64,000 nucleotides of DNA from Bacillus cereus (lineage in GTDB: Bacteria > Bacillota > Bacilli > Bacillales > Bacillaceae_G): assembly GCF_002584535.1 (NCBI RefSeq), contig NZ_NUOT01000044.1:27805-91804 (forward strand), given 5' to 3'. The translations under genes were made by a program, and so were the position numbers. The notes beneath the pieces were generated by a model. It was not told the DNA's origin. It saw nothing but the letters and a program-made list of their open reading frames with translations, and did not search any database. Shown piece by piece: positions 21,249 through 23,002 of this stretch. The stretch's first letter is position 1; every line of letters begins with the position of its first letter.

Positions 21249-21278
21249 AAAAGCGAGAGGCCAAGGCCTTTCGCTTTT
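21249..21278. terminator. Bidirectional terminator, EcsC-family gene and YitT gene
   Basis: AAAAGCGAGAGGCC / GGCCTTTCGCTTTT with a two-base centre and A/T tracts on both sides. Confidence 0.88.
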
Positions 21279-21927
21279 AGTTTGTTGCATGTTGTTTTGA
21301 TATTGGAATAGATACTGTTTTCTTTTCTTCTGCTGGATAATAAATTAAATCAAGCGTCTTTGCCTGCACAGCAATTGAAAGAATAGTAAAAGCAATTTCT
21401 GTCCAAGTTAAATAATATAATGAAAGTGTAAGTACAATCGCATCAAAGACGAAGAAAATCTGACCAATTGTAAATCGAGTTTTTTTACTTAGTACAATTG
21501 TTAAAATATCGTCTCCACCGGTTGAACCACCAAATCGCAATATAAAACCGAGTCCAATCCCAGCCAGCGCACCACCTAGTACTGCAGCTATCCATAAATG
21601 ATTTGATAAATCTACTGTAAATGGAGAATAGTTTTCCATTAAAGAATAAAATACTCCGAATGAAATCGATCCTATAAATGAATAACCAACCATCTTTTTA
21701 CCTAAAAATGTAGCACATAGCAAAATAATCGGGATATCCATTATTACAGTTGAAATTGACGGTGAAATATCAAAAAAGTTTTGGATAAATAGTGCAATTC
21801 CTACAAAGCCACCTTCAGTTAAGTGGTTTTGAAAATGAATGTGATATAGTGCTGCTGATAAAATAAATGAACCGATTAAAAGCATAAAAATTTCTTTAAT
21901 AATTTGTCGACTTTGGATGTTCCTCAT
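21277..21927 (-). CDS. YitT-family membrane protein
   Basis: The 216-aa integral membrane protein has about six hydrophobic helices. The YitT core is present: NHLTEGGFVGIALFIQ, then ALAGIGLGFILRFGGSTGGDD and IGQIFFVFDAIVL. The C-terminal DUF2179 domain found in longer YitT proteins is absent, so this is the short form. Function is unknown for the family. Its leader region, 21928-22400, contains the array of hairpin repeats described separately. Those would be read in the same direction if transcription starts near 22400. The ribosome binding site AGAAGGAAT is moderate. Confidence 0.83.
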   Translation of the reverse strand: MRNIQSRQIIKEIFMLLIGSFILSAALYHIHFQNHLTEGGFVGIALFIQNFFDISPSISTVIMDIPIILLCATFLGKKMVGYSFIGSISFGVFYSLMENYSPFTVDLSNHLWIAAVLGGALAGIGLGFILRFGGSTGGDDILTIVLSKKTRFTIGQIFFVFDAIVLTLSLYYLTWTEIAFTILSIAVQAKTLDLIYYPAEEKKTVSIPISKQHATN

Positions 21928-21943: not shown

Positions 21944-22377
21944 CGTAGTTAGTAGTTCTTTTCATCTTGTAAACTAACTACGAGCTCATATAGCCTTCAG
22001 TTAGTTTACATCAAACTAACTACGCTATATATCGCTGAAGAAATAACGAATAATCCTCTCGTCCATCAATTCTCCCTACTTTCGTTTTAGTTTAAGTCTA
22101 AAAACGACTAAACAAAACTTTGAGTAGGATTGGTTATTTAGCAATCCTGCCTTCTTCTTCGTTTTGTTTAGTAATTATCAATAAAGGCCTAAACAAAACG
22201 CTATGTGTAAGAAGAGTCTTTTCGTTGCCAAATTATCCTTCGGGCAATCATAATTTCCCCACTCTCGTATTTTTTTTCGCTAGACTAAAGTATCTGAGCA
22301 AAAAAATACGCTACGTGTAAGATTCGTCAATTCGATGCCACATGCTCCTTCGAGCGATCATGATATCAAAATCCTTT
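21944..22377 (-). repeat. Array of degenerate hairpin repeat modules
   Basis: At least four imperfect modules of roughly 75-110 bp lie in tandem. Each has a hairpin whose arms differ between modules but stay complementary: CGTAGTTAG (21944) / CTAACTACG (21974); GTTTTAGTTTA (22084) / TAAACAAAAC (22109); CGTTTTGTTTA (22160) / TAAACAAAACG (22190); CGTATTTTTTT (22266) / AAAAAAATACG (22300). In the last two modules the hairpin is followed by a shared block at 22199-22258 and 22309-22368 (CGCTAYGTGTAAGA, TTCG, TGCCA, TCCTTCG, ATCAT). A degenerate version of that block follows the second hairpin of the first module (arms 21999-22007 and 22013-22021). Possibly a known B. cereus group repeat. Identity is not assigned. 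Confidence 0.75.
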
Positions 22378-22747
22378 CTGTAAAAGATTTTATATTATTA
22401 TATCATACTTTCAAAAAATGTATGCGGATGGAAACCGACAATAACCGGAGAAAAATTACAGAATTTGTAATTTTATAGGAAGTATGCTGCTATTTTTAAA
22501 TATTTTTGCAAAATAGTCCTATTTGTTTAGGAGTTGGGAGAGGATGTCCAATAAGTAATAAGAAAGAAGTACTGAAATTTACTCACTTGTTTCCTGTTTG
22601 TCACTTTTTTCTTTGAAAAAAGCATCCCAGTTAATGGGGGATAAAAATTAAACTTCCTGTAGAGTCATGTTTCTGTACAAATTCTTTTCGTTAGTATATG
22701 ACGCGGGGAATGTATATTGTGTTATTTTTTTACAAAAATAAGTTTGT
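22378..22747. other. Intergenic stretch without a recognisable gene
   Basis: This is AT-rich sequence with stops in all frames. On the minus strand TATAAT-like strings lie near 22395-22405 and could start transcription through the repeat array. I see no RNA gene or coding signal. Confidence 0.5.
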
Positions 22748-22795
22748 ATGAGAGTATATTTGTATAGATGGATGAATGGTAAGGGAGGAGATAGT

Positions 22796-23002
22796 ATGTT
22801 CAAAGATATGTTCAAAAGAAAAGAATTAGTATGTTCTCTTTGTCAAAAAAAAATTCAATATGAAGAAGAATTGGTTGCCTTTGTAAAGTTACCAAAAGAA
22901 AGGAATCTGTTAGTAGGTCCTTTTGATGTATGCTTAGCGAAATCAGCGGAAAATATATATTGCAAGCCTTGTTATGAAAAAAGCATGACCCACAGTAAAT
23001 GA
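22796..23002 (+). CDS. Small CxxC-pair protein (putative zinc-binding)
   Basis: The 68-aa cytoplasmic protein has two CxxC knuckles, CSLCQKK near residue 12 and YCKPCYEK near residue 58. They could bind one zinc ion. The middle part is LVAFVKLPKERNLLVGPFDVCLAK. I do not recognise a named family or function. I chose the ATG at 22796 because GGGAGGAGAT sits seven bases upstream. The preceding in-frame codons lack a ribosome binding site. The terminator hairpin begins inside its last codons. Confidence 0.72.
   Translation: MFKDMFKRKELVCSLCQKKIQYEEELVAFVKLPKERNLLVGPFDVCLAKSAENIYCKPCYEKSMTHSK

Follow-up and report, generated by a model that had tools for sequence, protein, structure and literature searches.

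A tandem array of short leader ORFs ahead of a short yitT gene in Bacillus cereus, probably a ribosome-operated translational attenuator

The described systems closest to the locus studied here are the two-leader attenuators of ermA and ermB, the uORFC-6-1 motif and the stop-codon arrest peptide TnaC. For ermA, one of two models set out in the consulted part of PMC8274638 holds that stalling on the first leader open reading frame (ORF) activates translation of the second. The uORFC-6-1 motif lies upstream of hflX, mainly in Bacillales, and combines a conserved upstream ORF (uORF) with covarying RNA, for which the consulted text proposes a response to stalled ribosomes (PMC8632094). Here we describe the 5' leader of a short yitT gene on the minus strand of a 64,000-nucleotide stretch of Bacillus cereus DNA (contig NZ_NUOT01000044.1, positions 27,805 to 91,804), called the window below, where an earlier note had pointed out tandem hairpin modules. 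We found that the leader carries three short ORFs, A1, A2 and B, in series, each with its own Shine-Dalgarno (SD) sequence and joined by hairpins (Table 1). We consider it probable that this array acts as a tandem, ribosome-operated leader-peptide attenuator of yitT translation, following an ermA-like logic.

Tandem leader ORFs and the conserved peptide A

The three pairs of hairpin arms quoted in the earlier note are all present: CGTAGTTAGT/ACTAACTACG at 21944-21953 and 21973-21982, CGTTTTGTTTAG/CTAAACAAAACG at 22160-22171 and 22189-22200, and CGTATTTTTTT/AAAAAAATACG at 22266-22276 and 22300-22310. The block said to be shared by two modules was recovered at 22191-22257 and 22301-22367 (67 nt, 76% identity). 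It is the reverse complement of the two A ORFs and hence protein-coding: read on the minus strand, ATCAT becomes the start ATGAT and CTA the stop TAG of an ORF of 16 codons. Tandem leader ORFs, which the note had overlooked, thus account for the conservation of the block as well as for the repeated modules. The note had taken the block together with the changing arms as a sign of selection on structure.

Table 1. Features of the yitT leader and gene in window coordinates; each peptide given is followed by a stop codon
Feature	Position	Strand	Basis
Promoter-like site TTGAAA-16 nt-TAAAAT, before the leader	22387..22414	-	consensus scan, 10/12
SD region of ORF A1	22362..22379	-	sequence
Leader ORF A1, MIARRSMWHRIDESYT, stop UAG then C	22311..22361	-	conserved peptide family
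Hairpin 1; begins directly behind the A1 stop, finishes just ahead of the A2 SD	22266..22310	-	
Leader ORF A2, MIARRIIWQRKDSSYT, tandem copy of A1; SD 22252-22264	22201..22251	-	
Hairpin behind A2	22160..22200	-	
Putative remnant of a further module: SD-like AAGAAGAAGGCAGG and broken A-like frame	22122..22159	-	sequence only
Hairpin of the remnant module, ahead of the ORF B SD (22067-22082)	22083..22118	-	
Leader ORF B, MDERIIRYFFSDI, stop UAG then C	22025..22066	-	
Anti-SD within ORF B; 12 bp with the yitT SD region	22037..22048	-	
Hairpin 2; base AUAUAG/CUAUAU overlaps the ORF B stop	21988..22030	-	
Hairpin 3	21944..21982	-	
yitT SD region and start codon	21925..21939	-	
yitT short form, 216 aa, YitT_membrane domain only	21277..21927	-	Pfam PF02588, E 2.8e-45, residues 13-213

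The 148 raw matches to peptide A were merged by nucleotide context to 84, with loci L147 and L148 standing outside these, and a script sorted the loci by peptide into three groups. Group 1 is the window's type, with RSIW followed mostly by Gln or His and an ORF B of 13 residues; group 2 comes mainly from a second family, and group 3 has longer A peptides. In a set of 44 ORF A 3' ends, all distinct, summed entropy came to 5.7 and 6.0 bits for the first two codon positions and to 14.3 bits for the third. The proportion of synonymous differences (pS) exceeded that of non-synonymous differences (pN) in 937 of 946 pairs, namely in 419 of 420 between groups and in 518 of 526 within them (429/435 plus 89/91). 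In the core of the peptide Trp, Asp and Ser were invariant, and Tyr was found in 42 of the 44 ends. An SD of -5 kcal/mol or better preceded ORF A in 83 of the 84 contexts, as compared with 114 of 420 random places. Judged from these comparisons of sequence, selection acts strongly on the amino acids that ORF A encodes.

Peptide A was then followed through relatives of different distance. The ortholog of the short YitT in Priestia taiwanensis (class Bacilli) shares 69% identity over residues 10-211, and its leader (L001) consists of two A ORFs and one B; here the script had let A begin at an ATG further upstream (MNRILKRKDFDT...), and the 16-residue form was used instead. A short yitT with peptide A directly upstream was present in 19/19 genomes of the P. 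taiwanensis family. In the second family 31 of 38 genomes gave a short YitT match with an E value no higher than 1e-42, and peptide A lay ahead in all 31 (20 from one scan, nine among loci L085-L102, plus genomes G440 and G668). These 50 short yitT genes (19 and 31) were collected by protein search with the leader disregarded. On rechecking them, all 50 had UAG as the ORF A stop with C at +4, and the Arg codon AGG was present in 48 of 50; the script's YitT motif was seen in 48, the other two being YitT by protein search. In G440 and G668, Lys AAG replaces Arg AGG in peptide A.

A wider peptide-A pattern, derived from the hits in the two families, matched 65 of 398 genomes of a class sample (66 places) and 17 of 397 of an order sample, with none for the reversed-pattern control in either sample. 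All 66 class places were inspected, and each precedes a YitT gene. In one genome of the order outside the family (G389, locus L166) the peptide is the variant MLAQRSIWHRQDSSYT, again ended by a stop. Confinement of peptide A to a single family, as a strict pattern had indicated (16/397 order genomes), was overturned by a one-mismatch search (2/398) and by this wider pattern; a family-wide search (1/39) had likewise used a pattern that was too narrow. The long YitT paralogs were rejected as carriers of the leader, since a loose DNA pattern found no peptide A at 24 long-form loci. A first scan of the same 24, blind to variants such as HRTIW...SYI, had given one unrelated RR..W chance match (L056). 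P. taiwanensis (G001, L002-L007) has six YitT-family matches, with the leader on the short one only.

The number of A ORFs varies, and the array illustrates the multiplication of tandem leader ORFs: 18 of the 19 family genomes have a single A, P. taiwanensis has two, and the window has two plus a remnant. The remnant, at 22122-22159 on the minus strand, looks like a decayed third A-like module of the array and has an SD-like sequence without a clean start or stop. A plus-strand ORF at 22120-22320 was considered as a gene and rejected, as it is antisense to the leader ORFs. Elsewhere, at L111-L132, ORF A is longer in many loci (for example MCPRRTKSQRTIWKRCDLSYT, followed by its stop) in a way that looks like an internal repeat of the RRT part, and the second ORF often begins MRR with the same CGAAGG codons.

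These observations bear on one proposal of the earlier note, that of a mobile hairpin element inserting next to its own copies. Such an element, bcr-type or other, would fit tandem modules with repeated arms. In contrast, the relatives sampled carry one locus per genome, ahead of yitT wherever inspected; copies at unrelated loci, as expected of a bcr-like element, were sought among these relatives and none was found. Searches of the leader against plasmids and phages gave short weak matches only, with E 0.04 or worse, and two peptide-A patterns had no match in viral contigs. The modules are accounted for by duplication of ORFs, which is seen in L001 too. We therefore discard the mobile-element explanation almost entirely.

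The ORF A stop was UAG with C at +4 in 84 of 84 contexts, even though the search pattern also permitted UAA; TAG ends only three of the 37 long ORFs of the window, and a UAG with C behind it makes a weak context for termination. One could also suppose an amino-acid starvation attenuator, whose signal would be slow reading of the Arg (AGG) or Trp codons of ORF A. Trp was found in 44 of 44 distinct ends, as was AGG, the latter being part of the search pattern for many of them; AGG also appeared in the 48 protein-search loci given above, and it makes up 23 of 597 Arg codons in the window. However, Asp, Ser and Tyr, dispensable for such a sensor, are equally conserved, and two loci have Lys AAG instead of AGG. 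The leader holds no run of regulatory codons, and a search for intrinsic terminators on its minus strand gave no terminator-like site, so that neither mark of a trpL-type attenuator was found. Starvation sensing is in our view improbable.

ORF B, the lock on the yitT SD and the hairpins

The end of ORF B can pair with the yitT SD region in a 12-bp helix. Among 17 aligned group-1 leaders (17 of the 19 listed, without L012 and L015), 97.5% of the cells of this helix were paired, and two of its pairs had changes on both sides. When partners were slid, pairing of the whole structure fell to 25-66%. In shuffle controls, none of 500 shuffles equalled the lock in pairing, in cells with two-sided change or in covariation score. 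RNAalifold, unprompted, drew the same three helices and one extra 4-bp helix. A compensated change in the lock converts a Phe codon of ORF B to Ser, so that at this one site RNA pairing outranks the peptide, and selection on ORF B looks, from the alignment, to act mostly at the nucleotide level. The base of hairpin 2 takes in the stop of ORF B and formed 6/6 pairs in 13 of the 17 leaders, the best partner being searched for in this count. The stop itself was UAG in 11/11 distinct group-1 sequences, and C came next in 10.

The lock also appeared in duplex tests, in which identical pairs were merged. The native duplex between ORF B and the yitT SD was better than the median with SDs of other families in 11/11 cases of the window's group, with means of -13.9 for native, -9.2 for other-family and -7.7 for reversed SDs. 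Three loci were left out of both these tests and the ribosome masks described below: L067 and L068, which lack the script's YitT motif (YitT loci by protein search), and L120, in which no ORF B was found.

Compensation in the hairpin arms, which the earlier note had seen among the modules of the window, extends across species. The first hairpin was compared in 18 modules (without L012, L015 and L018), of whose rows 3, on inspection by eye, had the wrong end picked. Its ten base positions formed a mean of 8.9 pairs with their own arm against 7.5 with foreign arms, a count that is biased because the 3' end was picked for maximal pairing, and showed up to four pair types each. The folds were strong as well: the 476-nt leader on the minus strand reached -132.7 kcal/mol (z = -6.06, with 0/100 dinucleotide shuffles as good), and the last 145 nt of the leader reached -47.9 kcal/mol (z = -6.94, 0/200 shuffles). 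An RNA structure in the yitT leader, as the note had suggested, thus has comparative support from covariation, fold z-scores and RNAalifold.

An RNA-only switch, that is a riboswitch or thermometer in which the ORFs are incidental, would agree with the fold z-scores of -6 to -7, the AT-rich hairpins and the covarying SD lock. Against it, ORF A evolves as a coding sequence and its starts are preceded by SDs; the first hairpin is variable in loop and length, and no Rfam covariance model matched the leader at or above its gathering cut-off. We rate a pure RNA switch as very improbable.

A proposed ribosome relay

In the attenuator that we favour, the starting point is the free RNA of the window, where by computation the 12-bp helix with the ORF B end locks the yitT SD and stacks on hairpins 2 and 3. 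Once a ribosome occupies ORF B, it is predicted to strip the lock from the SD and, when standing at the ORF B stop, to cover the 5' arm of hairpin 2 also. The freed 3' arm of hairpin 2 could then capture the 5' arm of hairpin 3 (21999-22010 with 21968-21979, 12 bp), holding the yitT SD open. Upstream, a ribosome pausing at the end of ORF A would make the SD of the following ORF accessible, and a signal may in this way pass from one A ORF to the other, on to B and finally to yitT. The pause would probably be caused by the nascent peptide R-[ST]-[IV]-W-x-x-x-D-L-S-Y-[TI] together with the UAG-C stop, and candidates for the signal are an inhibitor of translation, slow termination, or a metabolite that enters the exit tunnel.

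When a ribosome mask was placed at the ORF B stop in the window RNA, the unpaired probability of the yitT SD rose from 0.00 to 0.95, and the alternative hairpin between arms 2 and 3 went from 0.00 to 0.98, replacing hairpin 3. On a longer RNA, where a script placed a 10-nt SD window, the SD of the window went from 0.20 to 0.86. The group-1 mean went from 0.20 to 0.63 over 21 rows, two of which take ORF A2 as the next ORF. For the weakly supported step from A to B, a mask on A raised the unpaired value of the B SD from 0.29 to 0.51 in the window's group, and the duplex of the ORF A tail with the B SD beat the median other-family SD in 12/14, 8/20 and 15/19 cases of groups 1, 2 and 3.

Several results weigh against this relay. 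The ribosome was modelled as a mask of 31 unpaired nucleotides only. A mask at codon 5 of ORF B left the yitT SD 0.98 unpaired without the alternative hairpin, and the ORF B stop is therefore not special for opening; the yitT start codon does not open and remains partly paired, being unpaired at 0.47 in free RNA and at 0.34 with a mask at the stop. In the alternative helix 99.3% of cells can pair, yet two-sided changes are absent. Two of five lock measures were no better than shuffles (two-sided pairs, 147/500; further pair types, 378/500). Outside the window's group the yitT SD opens little, from 0.31 to 0.52 in group 2 (28 rows) and from 0.24 to 0.32 in group 3 (32 rows). The ORF B duplex with the yitT SD fails in group 2, where 7/21 were better than the median other-family SD, and a reversed SD was nearly as good in both groups (-11.3 against -10.5 in group 2, -14.3 against -13.1 in group 3). 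Masks on A moved the B SD from 0.45 to 0.41 in group 2 and from 0.34 to 0.37 in group 3, and the ORF A tail paired only slightly better with native than with reversed SDs, the means being -8.1/-6.9, -9.7/-8.3 and -8.8/-8.5 in groups 1, 2 and 3. As modelled, the A-to-B step is weakly supported, modest in group 1 and without an effect of masks in groups 2 and 3. In addition, GCTCGAAGGAGCAT (window 22342-22355, minus strand) is identical in A1 and in 19/19 family genomes while the rest of ORF A drifts. Besides CGA-AGG codons it contains the SD-like AAGGAG and a mini-hairpin of 4 bp, and its conservation in the window's group could be RNA-level selection. Finally, peptide A is not known to carry an arrest motif, no search aimed at one having been made.

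A simpler arrangement would be a coupling chain without a sensor, in which ORFs and hairpins hand terminating ribosomes on to yitT and thereby set its level. Each stop, hairpin and next SD adjoin, any ribosome on ORF B opens the lock in the model, and many loci of the second family have a second ORF that overlaps the start of yitT. Nevertheless, the setting of a level needs no peptide conserved across families up to an invariant UAG-C, and we judge this arrangement unlikely, if less so than starvation sensing. At L063-L082 of the second family, the next ORF spans hairpin 3, and many of these loci have it run across the start codon of yitT in a different frame; this is a coupling unlike that of the window.

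Returning to the attenuator, a more specific and tentative form of it would make ORF A an undescribed arrest peptide (core RxIWKRYDLSYT, with variants) acting at UAG-C termination. It would sense the activity of release factor 1 or a ligand in the tunnel and control short YitT across Bacilli through the relay of SD locks. We hold this to be possible, with odds clearly below even. Arrest of ribosomes at UAG by peptide A, should it occur, would make the peptide a natural sensor for termination or for a drug. The arrest-peptide reading, if true, would give the uncharacterised YitT membrane family its first physiological cue, and the conserved leader peptide should reveal when the cell wants short YitT made.

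The YitT protein and comparison with known systems

YitT proteins appear from our searches to be common and, as far as these show, uncharacterised. A search of YitT by sequence against solved structures gave no match at E up to 1. In Pfam, the window protein has the YitT_membrane domain only and no C-terminal DUF2179. The consulted part of PMC4944035 uses the lack of DUF2179 to separate YczE from YitT proteins; the name yitT may merit a second look here, because the window protein is without that domain. In macrolide-selected Mycoplasma pneumoniae, at least three mutants had YitT-family mutations according to the portion of PMC10240068 consulted, which we take as a weak lead only towards a drug-response system. 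Around the gene, a terminator-like hairpin (21249-21278) lies between yitT and a converging EcsC-family gene. An 84-aa Cys-rich ORF on the plus strand (22748-23002), weakly zinc-finger-like below Pfam cut-offs, is divergent from the yitT leader. The promoter-like site of Table 1 is weak alone, because ten such sites occur in the region against a shuffle mean of 7.0.

Searches of the literature on YitT leaders, uORFs, riboswitches, antibiotics and peptide-A strings, mostly outside subscription journals, found no such leader. Among the known systems, uORFC-6-1 of hflX resembles the array, on the consulted text, in coupling a conserved uORF to covarying RNA structure. It differs in its Arg-Leu-Arg motif, in a structure lying downstream of the start of a single uORF and in its hflX target, and that text does not mention tandem ORFs. 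As in stop-codon arrest of the TnaC type, peptide A has residues, a Trp among them, whose conservation as far as the stop suggests that arrest occurs at termination. TnaC acts through transcription and Rho, unlike the translational control proposed here.

Leader peptides of the macrolide +X+ class carry the motif [KR]-x-[KR], which by eye is absent from A1 and A2 of the window. The two-leader attenuators of ermA and ermB come closest to the array. As expected of an erm-type attenuator, a leader ORF with an SD lies on the same strand and ORF A is selected as protein; sequestration of the target SD is found in the window and its group, and is weaker or unsupported in groups 2 and 3. Both have short leader ORFs in series and a main SD hidden in the leader RNA. 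The peptides look unrelated by eye, and the yitT leader is set apart by the invariant UAG-C of ORF A and by the variable number of A ORFs; the target is a macrolide methyltransferase in the erm systems and a short YitT membrane protein here.
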